DNA from: Pseudomonas sp. P7548
GTDB taxonomy: Bacteria; Pseudomonadota; Gammaproteobacteria; Pseudomonadales; Pseudomonadaceae
NCBI RefSeq assembly: GCF_013386585.1
Contig: NZ_JACARO010000002.1
Span: 62,001 to 126,000, forward strand
DNA length: 64,000 nucleotides
Reading direction: 5' to 3'
The notes under the pieces are model-generated. The model ran no database searches, was not told the DNA's origin, and was given only the letters and a program-made list of their open reading frames with translations. Below, piece after piece: positions 8,778-53,817 of the stretch. The position numbers and the translations under genes are program-made. Numbering within the stretch: position 1 is the stretch's first letter; each line of letters starts with the position of its first letter.

Positions 8778-10022
8778 CTCCGGCTCTGCCTGAGGAACTT
8801 CGACCGGTGGCGTTACCGCTTCGGGCGTTGGCTCAACGTTGGAGGATTCGCTCAAGTACACATGGTCGCCATTGTTATAGACGACGGTGCCTGACACCTG
8901 GCTGCCATCCTCGCGCAGCAAACGGTATTCACTGTGCAGAAGGTAAGCCGCAACGGCTTTTTTCGGCGGCACGTACGTGATGATTTCAAGCGGTGCAGAA
9001 TGGCTCCAGCCTTTTGCCGAGCGCAGCGTATGGGTGAACTCCCGACCCAGATGCGCTGAAAAATTCAGCTCAAAGACATGTTCGCCAGCAGGCCATTCCT
9101 TGCCAAGTTCCACGCTGGTGTTGGCTGCCAATGCTTTGACATTCCCACCCAACTCACCTTTGGTGGCTGTCCACATGAACGGCTGGCTGGTTGCCTCGGT
9201 GTTATGCCCAAACCCTGCGAGCACGTGGCGATCAGTACGCTCCAGCCGATAAACCGGCGACGTCCCGAGCTGCTCGGTTGCCGTCAGTTCCAGGTCTTTT
9301 ACGCAGAACCACGGCAATTCGCACACGTGCAGCGCGGAGGCGGTTTCCTCCTGCTGGGGGCTTTCATACCCGAGGAGGGCGGGCGGCGGTGGCAGGTCGC
9401 TGAGCTGCGCAGTGAGCGCCAGGCGCAGCGAATAGGCGGCAAGGCCCGTCTTGGCATAGCTGTCAGTGCCGATGAATGTACCCGGCGCCAGATAGAGTTC
9501 GCCTGCGCAAGCGTCAGGTAGGGCGGTCGACCAGAGACTCAAGTCGTTGGTGGAGCCGCTGCCTTTGTCGTTCCAGATCAGGTCGCCTACTTGAGCCGGC
9601 ATCACCAGGTCTTCCCTGATACAACGCACGGCATGGCGTGAAGGCTTGTCGTAATCGACCCCGAACACCAGCCCCATCGCCACGTAGCCTTCGGGTGGCA
9701 GTGGGCGCCAGATGGACGCATTGTTTCGCGCCCCGGTTCCTTCGTCATGCCATACCCGTTGGTAGTCGACTGGCGGACGCAGGGCGGTGCCGTCGGTTTT
9801 GTTGACATCGCTGACCAAGGCGACGACTTTGCTTTGGTTGATATTGCGGTAATGACCGACCGCAACATCCCCCAGGGAGAAAAACGAGCTCAGCGCATCG
9901 GACGTTGCGCTGGGCCGCCACAGGCTGACGGCTTTGCGCGCACCCGAGCCCTTGTCATTCCACAGGGGCAGGAACTCGCTGGTAAAGCTGATGAGCAGGT
10001 CGTTGAATTGCAGAGGCTTCAT
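8730..10022 (-). CDS. Vps62-related repeat protein
   Basis: This 430-residue protein is related to the Vps62 family. It carries three copies of a Trp-x-Asp-x-Gly-Thr/Ser-Gly motif: LWNDKGSGARKAVSLWRP (about 20), VWHDEGTGARNNASIWRP (about 90) and IWNDKGSGSTNDLSLW (about 155). Each is spaced 65-70 residues apart and followed in the first two by a Gly-Asp-Val/Met-Ala-Val-Gly-like strand, as in beta-prism repeats. A C-terminal beta-rich part ends in a Pro/Glu-rich tail. There is no signal peptide. The ATG at 10022 has GGAG upstream. The biochemical function is unknown. It may be accessory, since its neighbours on both sides are core genes. Confidence 0.75.
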   Translation of the reverse strand: MKPLQFNDLLISFTSEFLPLWNDKGSGARKAVSLWRPSATSDALSSFFSLGDVAVGHYRNINQSKVVALVSDVNKTDGTALRPPVDYQRVWHDEGTGARNNASIWRPLPPEGYVAMGLVFGVDYDKPSRHAVRCIREDLVMPAQVGDLIWNDKGSGSTNDLSLWSTALPDACAGELYLAPGTFIGTDSYAKTGLAAYSLRLALTAQLSDLPPPPALLGYESPQQEETASALHVCELPWFCVKDLELTATEQLGTSPVYRLERTDRHVLAGFGHNTEATSQPFMWTATKGELGGNVKALAANTSVELGKEWPAGEHVFELNFSAHLGREFTHTLRSAKGWSHSAPLEIITYVPPKKAVAAYLLHSEYRLLREDGSQVSGTVVYNNGDHVYLSESSNVEPTPEAVTPPVEVPQAEPELEVTGHDLVDNTLIP

Positions 10023-40850: not shown

Positions 40851-42521
40851 GTGACCAAGCCTACAAAATACCGTGACGTCGAAATCCGTGCCGCCCACGG
40901 TAACAAGCTCACTGCCAAAAGCTGGCTGACTGAAGCGCCGCTGCGCATGCTGATGAACAACCTCGACCCGCAAGTGGCCGAGAACCCGAAAGAATTGGTG
41001 GTGTACGGCGGTATCGGCCGTGCCGCGCGCAACTGGGAGTGCTACGACCAGATCGTCGAGAGCCTCACTAACCTGAACGACGACGAGACACTGCTGGTGC
41101 AGTCCGGCAAGCCGGTTGGCGTGTTCAAGACCCACAGCAACGCGCCGCGCGTACTGATCGCCAACTCCAACCTGGTGCCGCACTGGGCCAGCTGGGAACA
41201 CTTCAACGAACTGGATGCCAAGGGCCTGGCCATGTACGGCCAGATGACCGCCGGCAGCTGGATCTACATCGGCAGCCAGGGCATCGTCCAAGGCACTTAC
41301 GAAACCTTCGTCGAAGCCGGCCGCCAACACTACAACAGCGACCTGACCGGCCGCTGGGTCCTCACCGCCGGCCTCGGCGGCATGGGCGGCGCCCAGCCTC
41401 TGGCCGCTACTTTGGCCGGCGCCTGCTCGCTGAACATTGAATGCCAACAGGTCAGCATCGACTTCCGTCTGAACAGCCGTTATGTCGACGAACAAGCCAC
41501 CGACCTCGACGACGCTTTGGCCCGCATCGCCAAATACACCAAGGAAGGCAAGGCCATCTCCATCGCCCTGCTGGGTAACGCGGCGGAGATCCTGCCGGAA
41601 CTGGTCAAGCGCGGCGTGCGCCCAGACATGGTCACCGACCAGACCAGTGCCCACGACCCACTCAACGGCTACCTGCCAGCCGGCTGGACCTGGGACGAAT
41701 ACCGCGCCCGCGCCAAGACCGAACCGGCTGCCGTGATCAAGGCCGCCAAGCAGTCGATGGCCGTGCACGTCAAAGCCATGCTGGAATTCCAGAAACAAGG
41801 CATCCCGACCTTCGACTACGGCAACAATATCCGCCAGATGGCCCAGGAAGAAGGCGTGGAAAACGCCTTCGACTTCCCGGGTTTCGTACCGGCCTACATC
41901 CGCCCACTGTTCTGCCGTGGTATCGGCCCGTTCCGTTGGGCGGCGCTGTCGGGCGACCCGCAAGACATCTACAAGACCGACGCCAAGGTCAAAGAGCTGA
42001 TCCCGGACGACGCCCACCTGCACAACTGGCTGGACATGGCGCGCGAGCGAATCAGCTTCCAGGGCCTGCCGGCGCGTATCTGCTGGGTCGGTCTGGGCCA
42101 GCGCGCCAAGCTGGGCCTGGCATTCAACGAAATGGTACGCCGCGGCGAGCTGTCGGCGCCGGTGGTGATCGGCCGTGACCACCTCGACTCCGGTTCGGTC
42201 TCCAGCCCGAACCGCGAAACCGAAGCCATGCAGGACGGTTCCGACGCCGTGTCCGACTGGCCACTGCTCAATGCCCTGCTCAACACCGCCAGCGGCGCGA
42301 CCTGGGTGTCGCTGCACCACGGTGGCGGCGTCGGCATGGGCTTCTCCCAGCACTCCGGCATGGTGATCGTCTGCGACGGTACCGACGAAGCCGCTGAGCG
42401 TATCGCCCGCGTGCTGCACAACGACCCGGCCACCGGTGTGATGCGCCACGCAGACGCCGGCTACCAGATTGCGATCGATTGCGCCAAAGAACAGGGCCTC
42501 AACCTCCCAATGATCAAGTAA
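40851..42521 (+). CDS. hutU: Urocanate hydratase HutU
   Basis: HutU hydrates urocanate to imidazolone propionate using tightly bound NAD+ as an electrophile. The 556-residue protein has [15 protein letters not shown] (about 51), the NAD region [18 protein letters not shown] (about 172-189) and the catalytic-cysteine segment [20 protein letters not shown] (about 347-366). It starts at a GTG (40851) with AGGAG 8 bases upstream. It is the first gene of the long hut operon under the sigma-54 promoter. Confidence 0.97.
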
Positions 42522-42648: not shown

Positions 42649-42689
42649 CAGCAATGCACACAAAAACAATCCATCAGAGGTTGAACAAC

Positions 42690-44138
42690 ATGGCTGCAAA
42701 TGACACCACCCCGTTGATCGAAAGGCGCTCGATCGACTACATCCCGGAAGCGGAAAGACATGGTCGTCTATTGAGCCAGTTCACCCTGTGGCTGGGTGCC
42801 AACCTGCAGATCACCGCGATTGTCACCGGGGCCCTGGCTGTGGTGCTGGGCGGTGATGTGTTCTGGTCGTTGATCGGTCTGCTGATCGGCCAACTGCTGG
42901 GCGGTGGCGTGATGGCGTTGCATGCGGCACAAGGCCCGCAACTGGGCTTGCCGCAGATGATTTCCAGCCGTGTGCAGTTTGGTGTGTATGGGGCGGTGAT
43001 CCCGCTGGTGCTGGTGTGCCTGATGTACATCGGCTTCTCGGCCAGCGGCTCGTTGCTGGCGGGGCAGGCGGTGGCGCAGTTGCTGCACGTGGAAGACTGG
43101 GTCGGCATCGTGTTGTTTGCCGGGCTGATCATGGTGTTCACCATTTTCGGCTACCGCGTCATCCACGGCATTGGCCGCGTGGCCAGTGTGCTCGGCGTGA
43201 TTGCGTTCGTGTACCTGTTCTACAAACTGTTGGCGGGTAACGACGTGGCTGCGTTGCTGGGCAACAAGCACTTTTCCCTGAGCAGTTTCCTGTTGGCGAT
43301 TTCGTTGTCGGCGTCCTGGCAGATCGCGTTCGGCCCGTATGTGGCGGACTACTCGCGCTATTTGCCGCGCAGCACCAGCGCGTCGAAAACCTTCTGGGCC
43401 GTTGGTCTGGGGTCGGTGATCGGGGCGCAGGCGTCGATGGTGTTTGGTGTGTTCGCGGCGGCCCTGGCCGGCGCGCAATTCGCCCACCACGAAGTCTCGT
43501 TTATCGTCGGCCTGGGCGGCACCGGCATTGTCGCGGCGCTGCTGTATTTCAGCATCGCCTTCGGCAAGGTCACCGTGACCACCCTCAATGCCTACGGCAG
43601 CTTCATGTCCATCGCGACGATCATCAGCGGTTTTCGTGGCAGCCGGCACATCTCGAGTGCGGTACGCCTGCTGTACATCTTCCTGATGGTCTCGATTGCC
43701 GCCGCGCTGGCACTTTTGGGAAAAGACTCATTCCTCAAGGATTTCTCCGCGTTCATCCTGTTCCTGCTGGCGTTTTTCACGCCCTGGAGTGCGATCAACC
43801 TGGTGGACTTCTACTGCATCACCAAAGAGCGCTATGACATTCCTGCGTTGTCCAATCCCAACGGTCGCTACGGCCGCTGGAACCTGATGGGCATCAGCAT
43901 CTATGTGTTCGGCGTGCTGATCCAGATGCCGTTCATCTCGACGCACTTCTACACCGGCCCCCTCGTCGCCAGCCTCGGTGACACCGATATCTCCTGGATC
44001 ATCGGTTTGGTGGTGCCCGCTGCACTGTATTACTGGGCCGCCAAAAAGTGGCACAGCGCAACTCCTGAACACCTGATCCTGCCAGCAGAGCAGGGCGCTG
44101 CACCAACGACGACAAACGGGCTGGCGGTACAAGCCTGA
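42690..44138 (+). CDS. NCS1-family permease, probable urocanate transporter (HutTu type)
   Basis: This 482-residue, 12-helix transporter is of the nucleobase:cation symporter-1 family. The conserved TM1 segment is QFTLWLGANLQITAIVTGAL (about 35-54), the QIAFGPYVADYSRY motif is near 220, and AFFTPWSAINLVDFY is near 370. In P. fluorescens the hut locus encodes separate urocanate (HutTu) and histidine (HutTh) permeases. The position right after hutU and the family type fit the urocanate carrier. Substrate assignment is inference. The ATG at 42690 was chosen over an upstream one within the repeat border. Confidence 0.8.
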   Translation: MAANDTTPLIERRSIDYIPEAERHGRLLSQFTLWLGANLQITAIVTGALAVVLGGDVFWSLIGLLIGQLLGGGVMALHAAQGPQLGLPQMISSRVQFGVYGAVIPLVLVCLMYIGFSASGSLLAGQAVAQLLHVEDWVGIVLFAGLIMVFTIFGYRVIHGIGRVASVLGVIAFVYLFYKLLAGNDVAALLGNKHFSLSSFLLAISLSASWQIAFGPYVADYSRYLPRSTSASKTFWAVGLGSVIGAQASMVFGVFAAALAGAQFAHHEVSFIVGLGGTGIVAALLYFSIAFGKVTVTTLNAYGSFMSIATIISGFRGSRHISSAVRLLYIFLMVSIAAALALLGKDSFLKDFSAFILFLLAFFTPWSAINLVDFYCITKERYDIPALSNPNGRYGRWNLMGISIYVFGVLIQMPFISTHFYTGPLVASLGDTDISWIIGLVVPAALYYWAAKKWHSATPEHLILPAEQGAAPTTTNGLAVQA

Positions 44139-44207
44139 TGGGACGTGGACAGGGCAGGATGCCTACTGACTGCCGTAATCCATTTCAAGATTGGGAGCGT
44201 CACAACA

Positions 44208-45173
44208 ATGAAGATGAATAAAACCCTGTTGGCCACTGTGTTCTCTGCGGGCGTGTTGGCCAGTGCTGGCGCCCAGGCGGCCGGCTGGTGCGAATCCGGC
44301 AAGCCGGTGAAGTTCGCCGGCCTTAACTGGGAAAGCGGCATGTTGCTCACCGACATCCTGCAAACCGTGCTGGAAAAAGGCTACGACTGCAAAACCGACA
44401 GCCTGCCGGGCAACTCCATCACCATGGAAAACGCCCTGAGCAGCAACGACATCCAGATCTTCGCCGAAGAATGGGTGGGCCGCAGTGAAGTCTGGAACAA
44501 GGCCGAGAAGGCCGGCAAAGTTGTCGGCGTTGGTGCGCCGGTGGTGGGTGCCATCGAAGGCTGGTACGTGCCGCGCTATGTGATCGAAGGCGATGCCAAG
44601 CGCAAGCTGGAACCCAAGGCGCCGGACCTGAAAAACATCGCCGACCTGGCCAAATACGCCTCGGTGTTCAAGGACCAGGAAGAGCCGTCCAAGGGGCGTT
44701 TCTACAACTGCCCGGCCGGCTGGACCTGCGAGCTGGACAACAGCGAAATGCTGAAAAGCTATGGCTTGGAAAATTCCTACACCAACTTCCGTCCAGGCAC
44801 CGGCCCGGCGCTGGATGCGGCGGTGCTGTCGAGCTACAAGCGTGGCGAGCCGATCCTGTTCTACTACTGGTCGCCGACACCGCTGATGGGCCAGGTCGAC
44901 CTGGTCAAGCTGGAAGAAAAACCCGGCGTGGATAAAAGCGTGAGCATCAAGGTCGGTCTGTCCAAGACCTTCCACGAGCAGGCGCCAGAGCTGGTGGCCG
45001 TGCTGGAAAAGGTCAACCTGCCTATCGACCTGCTGAACCAGAACCTCGGTCGCATGGCCAAAGAGCGAATTGAATCGCCAAAACTGGCGAAAATTTTCCT
45101 CAAGGAACATCCTGAAGTCTGGCACGCATGGGTGAGCGACGACGCAGCCAAGAAAATCGACGCGGCCTTGTAG
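44208..45173 (+). CDS. hutX: Hut ABC transporter, substrate-binding protein (HutX)
   Basis: This 321-residue periplasmic protein has signal peptide MKMNKTLLATVFSAGVLASAGAQA and an OpuAC/ProX-type fold (GWCESGKPVKFAGLNWESGM, PGNSITMENALSSNDIQIFAEEW). It belongs to the glycine-betaine/quaternary-amine class but serves histidine import in the hut locus together with HutW and HutV. It precedes hutW by 72 bases. Ligand preference is taken from context. Confidence 0.88.
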   Translation: MKMNKTLLATVFSAGVLASAGAQAAGWCESGKPVKFAGLNWESGMLLTDILQTVLEKGYDCKTDSLPGNSITMENALSSNDIQIFAEEWVGRSEVWNKAEKAGKVVGVGAPVVGAIEGWYVPRYVIEGDAKRKLEPKAPDLKNIADLAKYASVFKDQEEPSKGRFYNCPAGWTCELDNSEMLKSYGLENSYTNFRPGTGPALDAAVLSSYKRGEPILFYYWSPTPLMGQVDLVKLEEKPGVDKSVSIKVGLSKTFHEQAPELVAVLEKVNLPIDLLNQNLGRMAKERIESPKLAKIFLKEHPEVWHAWVSDDAAKKIDAAL

Positions 45174-45245: not shown

Positions 45246-46097
45246 ATGTTTCCTGAGAGTTTTACGTTTTCCATTGCCGACTGGGTCAACGGTTGGGTGG
45301 ATTCACTGGTCACCAACTACGGCGATGTGTTCCGGCACATCTCCGACACCCTGCTGTGGGCCATCGTCAACCTGGAAGGCTTGCTGCGCGCAGCGCCGTG
45401 GTGGCTGATGCTGGCCATCGTTGCCGGCGTTGCCTGGCACGCCACCCGTAAGGTGGTGACCACGGCGGTGATCGTCGGTTTGCTGTTCCTGGTGGGCGCG
45501 GTCGGCCTGTGGGACAAACTGATGCAGACCCTGGCCTTGATGATGGTCGCCACGGTGATCTCGGTGCTGATCGGCATCCCGCTGGGCATTCTGTCGGCGC
45601 GCAGCAATCGCCTGCGTTCGGTGCTGATGCCGTTGCTCGACATCATGCAGACCATGCCGAGTTTCGTGTACCTGATCCCGGTATTGATGCTGTTCGGCCT
45701 GGGCAAGGTCCCGGCGATCTTCGCCACGGTGATCTACGCTGCGCCGCCGCTGATTCGCCTGACCGACTTGGGCATTCGCCAGGTCGACGGCGAAGTCATG
45801 GAAGCCATCAACGCCTTCGGTGCCAACCGCTGGCAGCAACTGTTCGGCGTACAACTGCCGCTGGCGTTGCCGAGCATCATGGCCGGTATCAACCAGACCA
45901 CCATGATGGCGCTGTCGATGGTGGTGATCGCCTCGATGATCGGTGCCCGTGGCTTGGGTGAAGACGTGCTGGTCGGCATCCAGACCCTCAACGTCGGTCG
46001 CGGCCTCGAAGCCGGGCTGGCGATTGTGATTCTCGCAGTGGTCATCGACCGCATTACCCAGGCCTATGGTCGTCCACGGCATGAGGCGAGCAAATGA
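45246..46097 (+). CDS. hutW: Hut ABC transporter permease HutW
   Basis: This 283-residue inner-membrane permease has about six helices and a ProW-like N-terminal region ([18 protein letters not shown]). The coupling motif with its invariant Ala/Gly region reads [27 protein letters not shown] (about 182-208). It belongs to the betaine-type (QAT) ABC importer class. Its stop overlaps the hutV start by 4 bases, so permease and ATPase are co-translated. Confidence 0.92.
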
Positions 46098-46918
46098 CTA
46101 CTGTCAGCAAAATTGAAGTTAAAAACGTCTTCAAGATCTTCGGCGCCCGTTCCAAGGACGCGCTGTCGCTGATCGGCCAAGGCAAGACCAAGGACCAGGT
46201 GCTGGCCGAGACCGGCTGCGTGGTCGGCGTGAACGACTTGTCCCTGAGCATCGGCACCGGTGAGATCTTCGTGATCATGGGCCTGTCGGGTTCCGGCAAA
46301 TCCACGCTGGTGCGCCACTTCAACCGCCTGATCGATCCTACCAGCGGCGCGATCCTGGTGGACGGCGAAGACATCCTGCAACTGGACATGGAAGCCCTGC
46401 GCCAATTCCGTCGGCACAAGATCAGCATGGTGTTCCAGAGCTTCGGCCTGTTGCCCCACAAGAGCGTGCTCGACAACGTCGCCTACGGCCTGAAGGTGCG
46501 TGGCGAAACCAAGCAGGTGTGTGCCGAACGCGCCCTGCACTGGATCGAAACCGTGGGCCTCAAAGGCTACGAAAACAAATACCCGCACCAGCTCTCTGGC
46601 GGCATGCGCCAGCGCGTTGGCCTGGCCCGCGCATTGGCGGCCGACACCGACATCATCCTGATGGACGAAGCGTTCAGCGCCCTCGACCCGCTGATCCGCG
46701 CCGAGATGCAGGACCAGTTGCTGGAGCTGCAAAAGACCCTGCACAAGACCATCGTGTTCATCACCCACGACCTCGACGAGGCCGTGCGCATCGGCAACCG
46801 CATTGCGATCCTCAAGGACGGCAAGCTGATCCAGGTCGGCACGCCCCGCGAGATCCTGCATTCGCCGGCGGATGAGTATGTGGACCGGTTCGTACAGCGG
46901 CGGGCGGCGGTGGTCTGA
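46094..46918 (+). CDS. hutV: Hut ABC transporter ATPase HutV
   Basis: This is a 274-residue ATPase. Walker A is GLSGSGKST (about 63-71), the signature [15 protein letters not shown] (about 168), Walker [14 protein letters not shown] (about 191) and the switch histidine is in [14 protein letters not shown]. The N-terminus has the QAT-class extension with a [15 protein letters not shown] segment. It lacks the tandem CBS domains found at the C-terminus of longer OpuAA/ProV proteins. It energises HutW. Confidence 0.93.
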
Positions 46919-47016: not shown

Positions 47017-47055
47017 GGCCGGTAAGGCTGCATAAGCATTAGAGAAGGTATGAAG

Positions 47056-48579
47056 ATGTCCCAGCCAACAAAAATCATCATCGCGGACACGCCATTGCGC
47101 TGGCAGGACGTGGTCGCCGTGGCCCGTCACGGCGCGATCCTCGAACTCTCGGGCCAGGCCTGGGCACGCATCGATAACGCACAAGCCATCGTGCAGCGCA
47201 TCGTCACCAGCGGCGAACGCGCCTACGGCGTGAACACCGGCCTGGGCGCGCTGTGCAATGTGTCGCTCAAGGGCGAGCAGCTCAGCCAAATGTCGCGCAA
47301 TACGCTGCTGAGCCACGCCTGCGGCGTCGGTCCGGTGCTCAGCGACGAGCAGACCCGCGCGATCATCTGCGCTGCCATCATCAACTATAGCCACGGCAAA
47401 TCCGGCCTGCATCCGCAGGTGGTGCATTCGCTGCTGGCGCTGCTCAACCACGGCATCACACCACAAGTACCGTCCCAGGGGTCGGTGGGTTACCTGACCC
47501 ACATGGCCCATGTCGGCGTGGCCTTGCTGGGCGTCGGTGATGTGAGTTACCGGGGCAAGATCGTTTCGGCGCAAGAGGCATTAAGCGCAGAAGGTTTGCA
47601 CCCGGTGGTGCTCGGCGCCAAAGACGGCCTGTGCCTGGTCAACGGTACACCGTGCATGACCGGCCTGAGCTGCCTGGCCCTGGCCGATGCCCACCACCTG
47701 CTGCAATGGGCCGATGTGATCGGTGCCATGAGTTTTGAAGCCCAGCGCGGGCAGATCGACGCCTTTGATGAAGAAATTATCGCGCTCAAGCCACACCCGG
47801 GCATGCAGCAAGTGGGCATCAACCTGCGCGCCTTGCTCGACGGCAGCGAAGTGATCGCCAGCAGCAAAGGCATACGCACCCAGGACGCCTTGAGCATCCG
47901 TTCGATCCCGCAGATTCACGGCGCCGCGCGCGACCAGGTCGAGCACGCCACCCGCCAGATCGAGACCGAACTCAACAGCGCCACCGACAACCCGCTGGTG
48001 CTCGGCACTCCGGACAACTACCGCGTAATGTCCCAGGCCAACCCCCACGGGCAGTCCGTGGCACTGGCCGCCGACATGCTCGCCATCGCCATGGCCGAGA
48101 TCGGTTCCGTGGCCGAACGCCGCCTGGACCGCTTGATCAACCCGCACGTCAGCGGCTTGCCGGCGTTCCTGGTGAGCAACCCGGGGGTCAACTCCGGGAT
48201 GATGATCGTGCAGTACGTCGCCGCCTCCCTGTGCGGGCAAAACCGCCAGCTGGCGCAACCGGCTGTGCTCGACAACTTCGTCACCTCGGGCCTGCAGGAA
48301 GACCACCTGAGCATGGGCACCAATGCCGCGCTCAAGCTGCACCAGGTGTTGGCCAACGTGACCCAGATCCTCGCCATCGAGTACCTGCTGGCGGCCCAGG
48401 CGTTTGAGTTCTTGAAGGACCAGCGTTTCGGCGCCGGCACCGACAGCGCCTGGCGATTGCTGCGTGAAGGGGTGCCGGCCTATGAACAGGACCGTTGGCT
48501 CGCGCCGGACATCGCCACCACCGCCGCCTTGCTCAAGGACGCCGCTCTGCTGCAGCGCACCTTGCCGAATTTGCACTGA
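47056..48579 (+). CDS. hutH1: Histidase-family protein lacking the MIO-forming Ala-Ser-Gly (HutH1 type)
   Basis: This 507-residue protein is related to histidine/phenylalanine ammonia-lyases. Active-site parts retained are AYGVNTGLG, LLSHACGVG, NGTPCM, the Arg of SIRSIPQIHG, and QEDHLSM. But where the neighbouring HutH has [14 protein letters not shown], this protein reads GSVG-YLTHMAH. The three residues that cyclise to the MIO electrophile are exactly deleted (47491 begins the Tyr codon). The catalytic Tyr (QDPYSLR in HutH) is Leu (QDALSIR), and the Phe of GGNFH is Pro (QANPH). It is therefore unlikely to be an ordinary ammonia-lyase. Start is the ATG at 47056 with AAGG 7 bases upstream; the ATG at 47050 is too close to it. 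Confidence 0.88.
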   Translation: MSQPTKIIIADTPLRWQDVVAVARHGAILELSGQAWARIDNAQAIVQRIVTSGERAYGVNTGLGALCNVSLKGEQLSQMSRNTLLSHACGVGPVLSDEQTRAIICAAIINYSHGKSGLHPQVVHSLLALLNHGITPQVPSQGSVGYLTHMAHVGVALLGVGDVSYRGKIVSAQEALSAEGLHPVVLGAKDGLCLVNGTPCMTGLSCLALADAHHLLQWADVIGAMSFEAQRGQIDAFDEEIIALKPHPGMQQVGINLRALLDGSEVIASSKGIRTQDALSIRSIPQIHGAARDQVEHATRQIETELNSATDNPLVLGTPDNYRVMSQANPHGQSVALAADMLAIAMAEIGSVAERRLDRLINPHVSGLPAFLVSNPGVNSGMMIVQYVAASLCGQNRQLAQPAVLDNFVTSGLQEDHLSMGTNAALKLHQVLANVTQILAIEYLLAAQAFEFLKDQRFGAGTDSAWRLLREGVPAYEQDRWLAPDIATTAALLKDAALLQRTLPNLH

Positions 48580-48699
48580 AGTTTTTCCAACAATAACCAG
48601 CGTGCCAAGCCGCGTGTCGCTCTAAAAGAGGGCCGCGGCGGATAACGGAAGCATCCGGAGCGACTGGTAGTTAACAACACTCTCAAAAGGAGCATGAAT

Positions 48700-50232
48700 G
48701 TGACTGCGCTAAACCTGATTCCAGGCCAACTGAGCCTCGCCCAACTGCGGGCCATCTACCAGCAGCCGGTAACCCTCAGTCTGGATGACAGCGCCACGGC
48801 GCAGATCGACGCCAGTGTGGCCTGCGTGGAGCAGATTCTCGCCGAGAACCGCACCGCCTACGGCATCAACACCGGTTTCGGCCTGCTGGCCTCGACCCGC
48901 ATCGCCAGCGAAGACCTGGAAAACCTCCAGCGTTCTCTGGTGCTGTCCCACGCCGCCGGCGTCGGTGAGCCGATCAGCGATGCGCTGGTGCGGCTGGTCA
49001 TGGTGCTCAAGGTCAACAGCCTCAGCCGTGGGTTCTCCGGGATCCGCCGCCAAGTGATCGACGCGCTGATCGCGCTGATCAACGCCGAGGTATACCCGCA
49101 CATTCCACTCAAAGGTTCGGTCGGTGCCTCCGGTGACCTCGCGCCCTTGGCGCACATGTCCCTGGTGCTGCTGGGCGAAGGCAAGGCGCGCCACAAAGGC
49201 GAATGGCTGGAAGCCACCGACGCGCTGAAAGTCGCCGGCCTTACGCCGCTGACTCTCGCCGCCAAAGAAGGCCTGGCGCTGCTCAACGGCACCCAGGTGT
49301 CCACCGCTTACGCACTGCGCGGCCTGTTCGAAGGCGAAGACCTGTTCGCCGGCGCCCTGGCGTGCGGCGCGCTCACTGTGGAAGCGGTGCTGGGTTCGCG
49401 CTCGCCGTTCGACGCACGCATTCATGCTGCGCGTGGTCAGCGTGGGCAGATCGATGCAGCGGCAGCCTATCGCGACCTGCTCGGTGAAAGCAGCCAGGTG
49501 TCCCAGTCGCACCAGAACTGCGACAAGGTGCAAGACCCGTACTCCCTGCGTTGCCAGCCACAAGTCATGGGCGCGTGCCTGACCCAGTTCCGCCAGGCCG
49601 CTGAAGTGCTGGTGGTCGAAGCCAACGCCGTGTCGGATAACCCACTGGTGTTTGCCGCCGAAGGCGACGTGATCTCCGGTGGTAACTTCCACGCCGAACC
49701 CGTGGCCATGGCCGCTGACAACATGGCCCTGGCCATCGCCGAAATCGGTTCGCTGAGCGAGCGCCGTATCTCGCTGATGATGGACAAGCACATGTCGCAA
49801 CTGCCGCCGTTCCTGGTGGGCAATGGCGGGGTGAACTCCGGCTTCATGATCGCCCAGGTGACCGCTGCTGCGCTTGCCAGTGAGAACAAGGCGCTGGCCC
49901 ACCCGCACAGTGTGGATAGCCTGCCGACGTCCGCTAACCAGGAAGACCACGTGTCCATGGCCCCGGCGGCGGGCAAGCGCCTGTGGGAAATGGCTGAAAA
50001 CACCCGTGGTGTGTTGGCGGTCGAGTGGCTGGCCGCGTGCCAGGGCCTGGATCTGCGTGACGGTCTCAAGACCTCGGCCAAGCTTGAGAAAGCGCGCGGC
50101 ATCCTGCGCGACAAAGTGGCGTTCTATGAGAAGGACCGTTTCTTCGCCCCGGACATCAACGCCGCCAGCGAACTGCTCGCCAGCCGCTGCCTGAATGAGC
50201 TGGTGCCGGCCAAGTTGCTGCCAAGCCTGTAA
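48700..50232 (+). CDS. hutH: Histidine ammonia-lyase HutH
   Basis: HutH deaminates histidine to urocanate, the first step of the pathway. The 510-residue enzyme has the MIO triplet in [14 protein letters not shown] (Ser about 144), plus [44 protein letters not shown] and NQEDHVSM, all expected active-site segments. The GTG at 48700 is preferred as start: AAGGAG lies 7 bases upstream, while the ATG at 48694 is only one base from it, and the resulting 510 residues equal the P. putida enzyme. The 120-base spacer before it may carry an internal promoter, but none is clear. Confidence 0.96.
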
Positions 50233-50373: not shown

Positions 50374-51783
50374 ATGCTCCAGCAAGAAAAGGGTTTGAAA
50401 CGCGGGCTCAGCGCCCGACATATTCGCTTCATGGCACTCGGTTCCGCGATCGGCACCGGGCTGTTCTACGGCTCCGCCTCCGCCATCCAGATGGCCGGCC
50501 CGGCCGTGCTGCTGGCCTACCTGATCGGCGGTGCCGCCGTGTTCATGGTAATGCGCGCCCTCGGCGAGATGGCTGTGCACAACCCGGTGGCGGGCTCGTT
50601 CGGCCAGTACGCCAGCACCTACCTGGGCCCCATGGCCGGCTTCATCCTCGGCTGGACCTACGCGTTTGAAATGATCATCGTCTGCCTGGCTGACGTCACT
50701 GCCTTCGGCATCTACATGGGCTTCTGGTTTCCCGACGTCGCGCGTTGGGTCTGGGTGCTCGGCATTGTTTTTTTGATCGGCGGCCTGAACCTGTGCAACG
50801 TCAAAGTGTTTGGCGAAATGGAGTTCTGGCTGTCGCTGCTCAAGGTTGGCGCCATCGTCGCGATGATCCTTGGCGGTTTCGGCATCATGCTGTTCGGCAT
50901 CCACTCGGCGGGTGAAACCCAAGCGAGTGGCCTCAGCAACCTGTGGGCCCACGGCGGCTTCATGCCCAACGGCGTCGGCGGCCTGATCGCCTCGTTCGCG
51001 GTGGTGATGTTTGCGTTTGGCGGCATCGAAATCATCGGCATCACCGCCGGTGAAGCCAAGGACCCGCAACGTGTGATCCCCAAGGCGATCAATGCCGTGC
51101 CGCTGCGCATCCTGTTGTTCTACGTGCTGACGTTGTTCGTGCTGATGGCCATCTACCCGTGGCCGCAGATCGGCAGCCAGGGCAGCCCGTTCGTGCAGAT
51201 CTTCAGCAACCTCGGCATCGGCTCGGCCGCGACCATTCTCAATATCGTGGTGATCTCGGCGGCCGTATCGGCCATCAACAGCGACATCTTCGGCGCCGGC
51301 CGCATGATGTACGGGCTGGCCCAGCAAGGGCAGGCACCCAAGGGGTTTGCGCAGTTGTCCAGGCACGGCGTGCCATGGATGACCGTGGTGGTGATGGGCG
51401 CAGCGCTGCTGGGCGGCGTGGTGCTCAACTACCTGATCCCGGAAAACGTGTTCCTGCTGATCGCCTCGATTGCCACCTTCGCCACGGTGTGGGTGTGGCT
51501 GATGATCCTGTTCACCCAGGTCGCCATGCGCCGCTCCATGACAGCGGAGCAGGTCGCCGAACTGAAATTCCCGGTGCCGTTCTGGCCGTATGCGCCGGCC
51601 GCCGCCATCGTCTTCATGCTGTTCGTGTTTGGTGTGCTGGGTTACTTCCCGGACACCCAGGCCGCCTTGTTGGTCGGCGCCGTATGGATCGTGCTGCTGG
51701 TCGTGGCCTACCTGCTGTGGGTCAAGCCTGCGGCCGGGCAAGCGGCCAAGGTTCATCACGACCCGGCTTTGTCTCATCGTTAA
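50374..51783 (+). CDS. hutT: APC-family amino-acid permease, probable histidine transporter
   Basis: This is a 469-residue, 12-helix amino acid/proton symporter of the APC (AAT) family. It begins [27 protein letters not shown], and the consensus [16 protein letters not shown] follows near residue 67. Its place among hut genes between hutH and hutI supports histidine uptake, as reported for HutTh in P. fluorescens. The C-terminal helices end in a short hydrophilic tail. It is 15 bases upstream of hutI. Confidence 0.88.
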
Positions 51784-51798
51784 TCTAGGGAGGCGTTG

Positions 51799-53004
51799 AT
51801 GAAAACGCTTTGGCAACACTGCCACGTCGCAACCATGGCCCAGGGCAAGTACTCGATCATCGAGGATGCCGCCATGGTCACCGCCGGTTCGCTCATCGAG
51901 TGGATCGGACCCCGCAGTCAGGTGCCTACGGCGGAATACGCCCAGGTGCATGACCTGCAAGGCGCGTGGGTCACCCCCGGGCTGATCGACTGCCACACCC
52001 ACACGGTGTTCGGTGGCAATCGCAGTGGCGAGTTCGAGCAGCGCCTGCAAGGCGTGAGCTACGCCGAGATCGCAGCCAAGGGTGGCGGCATTGCCAGCAC
52101 TGTACGCGCCACCCGCGCCGCGACCGAGGATGAACTGTTTGCCAGCGCTGAGAAACGCCTGCGCAGCCTGCTGCGTGACGGCGTGACCACCGTGGAAATC
52201 AAGTCCGGCTACGGCCTGGACCTGGTCAACGAACGCAAGATGCTGCGCGTAGCCCGTCGCCTCGGTGAAGCGCTGCCGGTCAGCATACGGGCCACGTGCC
52301 TGGCGGCCCATGCATTGCCACCGGAGTACAAGGACCGCGCCGACGACTACATCGACCATATCTGCACCGAGATGCTGCCGGCCCTGGCGGCGCAAGGGCT
52401 GGTGGATGCGGTGGATGCGTTCTGCGAATACCTGGCGTTTTCCACCGAGCAGGTGGAGCGTGTATTCAACGTCGCGCAGCAACTGGGCCTGCCGGTGAAG
52501 CTGCATGCCGAGCAACTGTCGTCGCTGCACGGCTCCAGCCTGGCGGCGCGTTACCACGCGTTGTCGGCGGATCATCTGGAGTTCATGACCGAAGAAGACG
52601 CCATCGCCATGGCCGCATCCGGCACCGTCGCGGTCCTGCTGCCGGGCGCTTTCTACTTCCTGCGCGAAACCCAGTTGCCGCCGATGGACGCCCTGCGCAA
52701 GCACGGCGTGAAAATTGCCATCGCCAGCGACCTCAACCCCGGCACCTCGCCGGCGCTGTCGGTGCGCTTGATGTTGAACATGGCTTGCACCCTGTTCCGC
52801 ATGACTCCGGAAGAAGCCCTGGCCGGCGCCACCACCCACGCGGCGACCGCGCTGGGCATGGGCGATACCCACGGATCCCTGGAAGTGGGCAAGGTGGCCG
52901 ATTTTGTCGCCTGGCAGATTGATCGTCCCGCCGACCTGGCCTACTGGCTGGGTGGCGAGCTGGATAAACGCGTCGTGCGCCATGGCGCCGACGTCACTGT
53001 ATGA
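51799..53004 (+). CDS. hutI: Imidazolonepropionase HutI
   Basis: HutI hydrolyses imidazolone propionate to N-formimino-L-glutamate. This 401-residue amidohydrolase shows the metal ligands in [13 protein letters not shown] (about 68-80). Further motifs are [11 protein letters not shown] (about 134), [11 protein letters not shown] (about 234) and [11 protein letters not shown] (about 311). AGGGAGG precedes the ATG at 51799. It is followed 12 bases later by hutG. Confidence 0.97.
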
Positions 53005-53016
53005 AGGAGTGCTGCT

Positions 53017-53817
53017 GTGGATAAGGTTCTGACGTTCAAAAAAGGCCGCGTGCCGCTGCTGATCAGCATGCCCCACGCTGGCTTGCGCCTCACGCCTGCG
53101 GTCGAAGCCGGGTTGATCCCAGAAGCACAAAGCCTGCCGGACACCGATTGGCATATCCCTACGCTGTACGATTTTGCCGAAGCACTGGGCGCCAGCACCC
53201 TGGCGGCGGAGTATTCGCGCTTCGTGATCGACCTGAACCGGCCATCGGACGACAAACCGCTCTATGCTGGTGCCACTACCGGGCTGTACCCGGCGACCCT
53301 GTTCGATGGTGTGCCATTGTTCCTTGAGGGACAGGTGCCGTCCGAGGAAGAGCGCGTGACCTACCTGCAAAAGATCTGGGGGCCGTACCACCGCACTCTG
53401 CAAGAAGAACTTGCCCGGCTCAAGGCCGAGTTCGGCTACGCCTTGCTGTTCGATGCGCACTCGATCCGCTCGGTGATTCCGCACCTGTTCGACGGCAAGT
53501 TGCCGGACTTTAACCTCGGCACCTTCAACGGCGCCGCGTGCGACCCGGAACTGGCCAGCCAGCTGGAAGCCATCTGCGCCCAGCACCCGCAGTACACCCA
53601 TGTGCTCAATGGGCGTTTCAAGGGTGGCCACATCACCCGGCATTACGGCAACCCGGCGCAGGATATTCACGCGGTGCAGCTGGAGTTGTGTCAGAGCACG
53701 TATATGGAAGAGGTTGAGCCGTTCCGGTATCGGCCGGACCTGGCAGAGCCGACGCAGGTGGTGTTGAAGCAATTGCTGGAAGGCGTGCTGGCCTGGGGGC
53801 AGAAGCGTTACGGCTGA
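53017..53817 (+). CDS. hutG: N-formylglutamate deformylase HutG
   Basis: HutG hydrolyses N-formyl-L-glutamate to glutamate and formate, completing the HutF-HutG branch. The 266-residue protein shows LLISMPHAGLRL (about 13), FVIDLNRP (about 69) and LLFDAHSIRSVIP (about 143). It also has GGHITRHYGNP (about 205), the metal and substrate positions of the FGase fold. The start is a GTG at 53017 with GAAGGAG upstream. It is the last gene of the hut operon. Confidence 0.96.
   Translation: MDKVLTFKKGRVPLLISMPHAGLRLTPAVEAGLIPEAQSLPDTDWHIPTLYDFAEALGASTLAAEYSRFVIDLNRPSDDKPLYAGATTGLYPATLFDGVPLFLEGQVPSEEERVTYLQKIWGPYHRTLQEELARLKAEFGYALLFDAHSIRSVIPHLFDGKLPDFNLGTFNGAACDPELASQLEAICAQHPQYTHVLNGRFKGGHITRHYGNPAQDIHAVQLELCQSTYMEEVEPFRYRPDLAEPTQVVLKQLLEGVLAWGQKRYG

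Follow-up and report, generated by a model that had tools for sequence, protein, structure and literature searches.

HutH1, a histidine ammonia-lyase (HAL) homologue encoded in a hut operon of Pseudomonas sp. P7548, carries a single tyrosine where related enzymes have the residues that form the MIO cofactor. Our analysis indicates that HutH1 is real, selected and widespread, being shared by many soil bacteria, and that it is most likely an MIO-free lyase with hercynine (N-trimethyl-histidine) or a very close N-methylated histidine as its substrate. We assign this reading a probability of about 60%. Since MIO is missing, the rest of the active site is mostly kept and betaine importers are common beside the gene, the enzyme probably releases trimethylamine from hercynine and not ammonia from histidine.

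The hut operon of the window

The window is the whole stretch of DNA that was analyzed, 64,000 nucleotides in length. Its hut genes are arranged in the order hutU, an NCS1 permease, a ProX/ProW/ProV-type ABC system (HutXWV), hutH1, hutH2, a permease, hutI, and hutG (Table 1). The same five-gene insertion is described in PMC8871633, where hutTu is by name a urocanate transporter and HutXWV of P. fluorescens SBW25 is reported to participate in histidine uptake. The sequence of HutX matched eight solved sequences, all from glycine-betaine, choline, or related ABC systems. Judging from the gene order, PA5093 is presumably more likely the hutH1 homologue than hutG. It is designated hutG in PMC12772324.

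Table 1. Features of the window bearing on HutH1
Feature	Position	Strand	Basis
hutU, urocanate hydratase	40851..42521	+	TIGR01228 1016.1 bits; under thiourocanate-hydratase cut-offs
NCS1-family permease, hutTu position	42654..44138	+	ORF; TIGR00800 (ncs1) 97.3 bits, below cut-off (scanned from 42687)
HutX, ProX-type substrate-binding protein	44208..45173	+	Weak ProX match, 82 bits, cut-off 215
HutW, ProW/ChoW-type permease	45246..46097	+	Best NCBIfam scores: choline ABC permease 295.1, ProW 261.9, both under their equivalog cut-offs
HutV, ProV-type ATPase, betaine/proline/choline ABC family	46094..46918	+	TIGR01186 365.6 bits, cut-off 326.6
HutH1, MIO-free (Tyr-type) histidine ammonia-lyase homologue, 507 aa	47056..48579	+	Open frame, Pfam, NCBIfam, AF2 model
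Tyr57, equivalent of HAL Tyr53, kept	47224..47226	+	Alignment
GSVGYLTHMAH motif, Tyr146 (codon 47491-47493) in place of ASGD of MIO enzymes	47479..47511	+	Alignments
Leu279, equivalent of HAL Tyr280; ergothionase also Leu	47890..47892	+	Alignment
Pro330, equivalent of HAL Phe329; Ala or Pro in HMAH-type rows	48043..48045	+	Alignment
Glu415, equivalent of HAL Glu414, kept	48298..48300	+	Alignment
hutH2, ordinary MIO-type histidase	48694..50232	+	TIGR01225 728.2 bits, above cut-off
Permease in hutTh position	50374..51783	+	ORF; named by position and from PMC8871633
hutI, imidazolonepropionase	51796..53004	+	ORF; named from sequence and operon order
hutG, N-formylglutamate deformylase	53017..53817	+	ORF; named from sequence and operon order

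The HutH1 frame runs uninterrupted from the ATG at 47056 to the TGA at 48579, and an in-frame ATG at 47050 is a possible alternative start. HutH1 passed the gathering score of Pfam PF00221 (Lyase_aromatic; 554.8 bits over residues 14-471, gathering score 27.3) and the cut-off of the broader subfamily model NF006871 (552.5 bits versus 524). With the NCBIfam hutH equivalog TIGR01225 it scored 533.6 bits, just under the cut-off of 539.15. The AF2 monomer model (mean pLDDT, 88.7) has the HAL fold, whose active site spans several subunits. In a fold comparison the model matched HALs with Z scores of 43-47 and ergothionase with a Z score of 44.5, as membership of the family would lead one to expect. 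The database names on the eight annotated Tyr-type copies that we read are "histidine ammonia-lyase" or "aromatic amino acid ammonia-lyase." Judging from their sequences, MIO cannot form in the Tyr-type copies annotated as ammonia-lyases.

A single tyrosine in place of the MIO triad

Active-site residues are numbered here according to P. putida HAL. The numbers Y280, F329, and D145 agree with PDB titles, while Y53, H83, N195, Q277, R283, and E414 are those that we take to apply to the remaining positions. Alignment of HutH1 with HutH2 revealed a net loss of exactly three residues at the motif. Because Asp145 is gone as well, "ASGD replaced by one Tyr" describes HutH1 better than "ASG deleted."

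Among 156 HMAH-type rows, a set that includes near-duplicates, the Ala-Ser-Gly triad was present in none. All 156 have the single Tyr in place of ASGD and Leu at position 280, and all retain His83, Asn195, Gln277, and Arg283. Tyr53 and Glu414 are retained in every one of the 155 rows having a letter there, and the Phe329 position is occupied by Ala (81 rows) or Pro (75 rows). MIO-type rows retained Tyr53, Tyr280, and Phe329 in 55 of 55 cases; one MIO row, PAL-like by sequence, has Gln at position 414. The imidazole/carboxylate site of HAL (His83, Asn195, Arg283, and Glu414) and Tyr53 are present in HutH1 itself. We take the Tyr53 site, which HutH1 keeps, to be that of the inner-loop tyrosine of these enzymes. 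An inner-loop Tyr is needed for activity according to PMC9002059. As far as the alignments allow us to judge, the HutH1 site resembles that of a lyase whose cofactor and two surrounding residues have been exchanged, rather than a relaxed site. The Phe329 position varies among MIO-free subgroups (Ala, Pro, Cys, Gly, or Phe), as do the residues next to the Tyr. One subgroup, with the motif ending xxEGH, has no MIO yet retains both Tyr280 and Phe329.

An earlier, sequence-only reading of this DNA had described an in-frame loss of Ala-Ser-Gly in an intact frame of 507 residues, with Pro at the active-site Phe and with Arg, Glu, His, Asn, and the pocket Tyr kept. The open frame and the alignments bear out the intact frame, the Pro at the Phe position (Pro330 for Phe329), and the presence of R283, E414, H83, and N195. 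Its view that nothing but Ala-Ser-Gly had gone was correct as to the net loss of three residues and wrong as to Asp145, which is lost too, with one Tyr standing instead. Likewise, its statement that the catalytic Tyr is Leu is true for Tyr280 and false for Tyr53.

Spread and selection of HutH1

Matches of at least 57% identity were found in 104 of 149 Pseudomonas genomes. We read 62 of these 104 orthologues, the window included; those fetched comprised the 29 top-ranking matches plus 32 picked largely from the most divergent, which left out 42. The motif GSVGY[LI]xHMAH was present in all 62 (the window and 61 loci). Beyond these orthologues, we searched genome_contigs, in which each of 84,980 species is represented by a single genome, with the pattern GS[VA]GY[LI][TS]H[MN]. 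This search returned at least 598 stretches, of which at least 594 were confirmed as relatives by tblastn with a 63-residue fragment. The exact DNA pattern occurred in 2 of 369 genomes of a class-wide sample and in 16 of 398 of a phylum-wide sample, two samples that overlap and that both include the window's own genome. The HMAH form was also present in Erwinia and Burkholderia plasmid records. More distant copies with one Tyr were read from Rhizobium, Priestia, Klebsiella plasmid records, and further Pseudomonas paralogues, with the motifs GSAGYLTHNAH, GSLGYLNHQAH, GSVGYLIATxH, and GSVGYLAVEGH.

HutH1 is under purifying selection. Using our own Nei-Gojobori script, we obtained a median pairwise dN/dS of 0.140 (1779 pairs, 62 sequences), with 0.113 for pairs involving the window and 0.644 as the highest value. 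The median for HutH2 was 0.067 (49 sequences), so that the HutH1 value is about twice as high. The sequence-only reading had asked whether the deletion is universal and selected, and had argued that the gene is not decayed. The occurrence of the replacement in every orthologue read, together with an open frame and a dN/dS well below 1, answers the question and bears out the argument. In one Tyr-type copy (G870:C10:448195-449649) the HutH2 match contains one TAG, yet a 506-aa open frame is listed; the TAG is either an alignment edge or a real stop.

A viral origin of HutH1 was also considered and was rejected, as the exact motif pattern gave no match in viral_contigs. With HutH1 as the query, tblastn returned ten phage records: eight had at most 41% identity, and the other two, at 45% and 71.6%, spanned only part of HutH1.

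Importers adjoining Tyr-type genes

To describe the neighbourhood of the gene, we set 33 Pseudomonas loci of the Tyr type against 20 ordinary hutH loci lacking a Tyr-type gene. Of the latter, nine come from genomes with a Tyr-type gene elsewhere, and the genomes of the other 11 have no close Tyr-type match. The importer at the Tyr-type loci was ProXWV in 28 cases, a BCCT transporter in 3, and a polar-amino-acid ABC system in 2. ProXWV-like or BCCT genes thus adjoined 31 of the 33 Tyr-type genes and lay within 4.5 kb of none of the 20 ordinary hutH genes. Neighbour counts of this kind are not independent events, as the Tyr-type gene and its importer may move together. Polar-amino-acid ABC genes were seen at 1 of the 20 ordinary loci. 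An ordinary HutH was found in the same stretch at 17 of the 28 ProXWV loci and was not found at the other 11, which argues that the importer goes with the Tyr-type gene. At 29 further Pseudomonas loci with short flanks, both ProV and an ordinary HutH were present in every case.

Seven loci outside Pseudomonas carried BCCT (two) or polar-amino-acid systems (five). Over the resulting set of 40 loci, from which second copies (L056 and L057), xxEGH copies, and plasmid records were left out, no ordinary HutH was found beside the Tyr-type gene in 19; most of the 40 stretches are about 9.5 kb long. Pfam confirmed BCCT at three loci. Gene maps of unannotated loci were made with a simple gene caller of our own; by this caller, the BCCT frame of L116 (8291-9886) overlaps the start of the Tyr-type gene at 9879.

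A further neighbour set was drawn from genome_contigs. It comprised the best 80 of the at least 594 relatives, mostly from Burkholderiaceae, of which 77 had a callable frame. Among these 77, the importer was a polar-amino-acid ABC system at 75 loci, and none of the importers sought was found at the other 2. The binding protein tested from the polar-amino-acid ABC system resembles Lys/Arg/Orn and His binders, not betaine binders.

The second copies L056 and L057 (genomes G044 and G107), which were also left out of the 33 loci, had no sought importer within 7 kb except that of the neighbouring paralogue. Two genes upstream of the Tyr-type copy in G044 lies a gene for a protein that scores near glycine betaine monooxygenase (585.7 bits against a cut-off of 670), and in G107 a 91% homologue of this GbcA-like protein adjoins the Tyr-type copy. 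At L113 (G044) and L112 (G107) the Tyr-type lyase is grouped with the GbcA-like oxygenase, a reductase, and an enolase-superfamily protein, and at L113 also with an Ldh_2 dehydrogenase. This gene group is possibly a separate betaine pathway.

Hut sets with a Tyr-type lyase and clues to the product

A complete hut set with an MIO-free lyase is present on a Klebsiella pneumoniae plasmid (L204; NZ_CP029739.1, 130000-175746), in the order hutG, hutI, hutU, an OsmF-like ABC system, the Tyr-type lyase, hutD, hutC, and hutF. In this plasmid record tblastn detected one lyase place only, the Tyr-type one. The binding protein of the ABC system scores 90.4 bits as OsmF, a weak match given the cut-off of 400, and is similar to proteins that bind choline, betaine, or ergothioneine. 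It matches EgtUC of the ergothioneine importer EgtU, a betaine-type binding protein for a histidine betaine, at E 1e-22. Altogether, 226 Klebsiella plasmid records matched HutH1 by tblastn; they are a mixture of matches near 42% identity, of which the copy read is Tyr-type, and matches near 40%.

A comparable case is genome G801, estimated to be 100% complete. Its hut operon contains a Tyr-type lyase and a BCCT-like gene that is 72% identical to a confirmed BCCT. Among its three HutH2 matches at E <= 1e-60 there was no HAL-type MIO enzyme; the two matches other than the Tyr-type lyase were one MIO-type sequence, PAL-like by look, and one ergothionase-like sequence.

The adjoining catabolic and regulatory genes give clues to the product. 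A HutC-like gene lay within 7 kb at 72 of the 77 genome_contigs loci (from the best 80 of at least 594), assigned by 44-97% identity to one reference. The TIGR02018 cut-off was passed by the reference and by two more HutC proteins encoded beside Tyr-type genes in plasmid records. The signal to which HutC answers is urocanate, according to PMC12977541 and PMC8871633. Five HutU proteins encoded near Tyr-type genes, that of the window included, scored 945-1020 bits as urocanase and fell below the thiourocanate-hydratase cut-offs. With HutU scoring as a urocanase and HutC adjoining, the product is expected to be urocanate and not thiourocanate, and hercynine therefore fits better than ergothioneine as the substrate.

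Comparison with known lyases

The nearest characterised parallel to HutH1 is ergothionase. Like HutH1, the enzyme from Treponema denticola (6s7j) has the HAL fold, no MIO triad, and Leu at the Tyr280 position, and it retains the equivalents of Tyr53, His83, Gln277, Arg283, and Glu414. Unlike HutH1, with which it shares 30% identity, it retains Phe329 and has Ser at position 195. At the triad site it reads SSIGEGDITTLSH, with EGD one residue shorter than ASGD, whereas HutH1 has the single Tyr. PMC13405746 describes ergothionase as an enzyme without MIO that releases trimethylamine, so this fold can work without the cofactor. P. putida HAL (1b8f; Z 44.2, 38% identity) shares with HutH1 the fold, the imidazole/carboxylate residues, and the location in a hut operon, but it has the MIO triad, and it has Tyr280 and Phe329 where HutH1 has Leu and Pro. 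The hutH1 of P. fluorescens SBW25, compared by its name in the literature, is called a histidase, and the loss of the triad goes unmentioned in the available passages. Among the matches listed from the open-licence literature, we found no report of the missing triad of HutH1 or of hercynine lyase activity.

Other MIO-free relatives were encountered in Pseudomonas. The window's own genome contains a second MIO-free HAL relative (C241, about 42998-44341; L063:2545-3930, L114:9975-11363), with GSLGESDLAPLAH at the motif and Leu at the Tyr280 position. Its best PDB sequence match is ergothionase 6s7j, and it adjoins an OpuAC-type binding protein, an OCD-family protein, and a TonB receptor. The Pseudomonas paralogue family of L109-L112 (GSVGYLAVEGH/GPEGH), which lacks MIO and retains Tyr280 and Phe329, lies beside a polar-amino-acid ABC system; hutU adjoins it in one genome, and a VanA-type Rieske oxygenase with a reductase adjoins it in another.

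We also considered how the MIO-free state arose. In an unrooted tree built with the motif columns left out, which has long branches of which the program warns, a single branch (99/97) separates the 20 MIO rows (two of them PAL-like) from all MIO-free rows, ergothionase among them. A single clade of all 30 Tyr-type rows was not rejected (p-AU 0.526). Ergothionase 6s7j groups with two ergothionase-like rows on a long branch of their own (100/100); one sequence of this group is characterised, and its middle is missing. One loss of MIO, two losses, and a late gain are all compatible with the unrooted tree. In the fold comparison the lyases are followed by fumarases, which work without MIO (Z 12.5-13.9; unrelated helical bundles score in this range too). 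It is a speculative and rather unlikely idea that the fold first served MIO-free lyases acting on methylated amines and that MIO was a later gain enabling the expulsion of plain ammonia.

Proposed mechanism and alternative explanations

According to our model, the substrate would be imported by HutXWV or, elsewhere, by BCCT, OsmF-type, or polar-amino-acid ABC systems. Its imidazole ring would be held by the equivalents of His83 and Glu414 and its carboxylate by that of Arg283. The Tyr53 equivalent would take the beta proton, and trimethylamine would then leave directly. MIO would not be required, as the substrate itself would carry a good leaving group that departs unaided once the beta proton is removed. 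We infer that the Tyr replacing MIO faces the trimethylammonium group (cation-pi), in the space opened by the change of Phe329 to Pro or Ala. The product, urocanate, would be converted to glutamate via HutU, HutI, HutF, and HutG and would also relieve HutC repression. Hercynine is the simplest account of a substrate that is imported like a betaine, has an imidazole and a carboxylate, and yields urocanate without MIO. Several observations stand against it. The importer outside Pseudomonas is mostly a polar-amino-acid ABC system, the xxEGH subgroup keeps Tyr280 and Phe329 in spite of lacking MIO, and L056 and L057 have no sought importer of their own. Among the neighbouring genes inspected, none for the breakdown of trimethylamine stood out. 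Moreover, HutXWV of SBW25 is linked to histidine uptake in PMC8871633.

The differences among subgroups at Phe329 and beside the Tyr could mean that the MIO-free lyase acts on something else, such as an aryl-alanine betaine other than hercynine (tryptophan betaine would be one), a differently methylated histidine, or an imidazole compound with a non-amine leaving group; subgroups may differ in this respect. SolA, of the N-methyl-tryptophan-oxidase family, adjoins the Rhizobium and Sinorhizobium copies and one Pseudomonas copy (L094, L095, and L117), and the VanA-type oxygenase beside the xxEGH paralogue points the same way. We nevertheless consider another substrate unlikely, given that His83 and Glu414, which are features of HAL, are retained throughout the HMAH type and that the adjoining HutU and HutC indicate urocanate. 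An enzyme that remains an ordinary histidase, acting on histidine without MIO and perhaps slowly, would account for the place of the gene in hut operons, for the retained histidine-binding residues, and for the operon of G801, which has no other HAL-type lyase that we could find. Ammonia is, by general chemistry, a poor leaving group in the absence of MIO, and Tyr280 and Phe329 are altered together with the cofactor, which makes this explanation very doubtful.

Of the three roles put forward by the sequence-only reading, a different chemistry is favoured here. The other two, a urocanate or histidine sensor and a partner subunit of HutH2, would make HutH1 a non-catalytic binding protein, as the loss of the cofactor triad and the ordinary HutH in the same stretch at 17 of the 28 ProXWV loci might suggest. 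Such a role is improbable because the substrate-binding and proton-abstracting residues are conserved with hardly any exception; in addition, an ordinary HutH was not found in 19 of the 40 stretches, and the Tyr-type lyase occupies the only lyase place on the Klebsiella plasmid with its whole hut set. The missing triad and a dN/dS about twice that of HutH2 could in principle also reflect a decaying paralogue or an assembly error. A pseudogene is rejected by the open frame and the median dN/dS of 0.140, and decay or sequencing error is refuted by purifying selection and by the same replacement in all 62 orthologues read and in at least 594 confirmed relatives, which leaves a negligible chance for either.

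Implications

If HutH1 is a hercynine lyase, hutH1 and its companion importer would gain a job, and the dispensability of hutH1 for growth on histidine would be explained. Fungi and bacteria form hercynine on the way to ergothioneine, and the enzyme would add a route from hercynine to glutamate and trimethylamine. HutH1 would also offer a natural test of the purpose of MIO, combining the same fold and a nearly identical pocket with a leaving group for which the cofactor should be dispensable. An unrecognised route from hercynine to urocanate, releasing trimethylamine, may exist in hundreds of species and on at least one Klebsiella plasmid.
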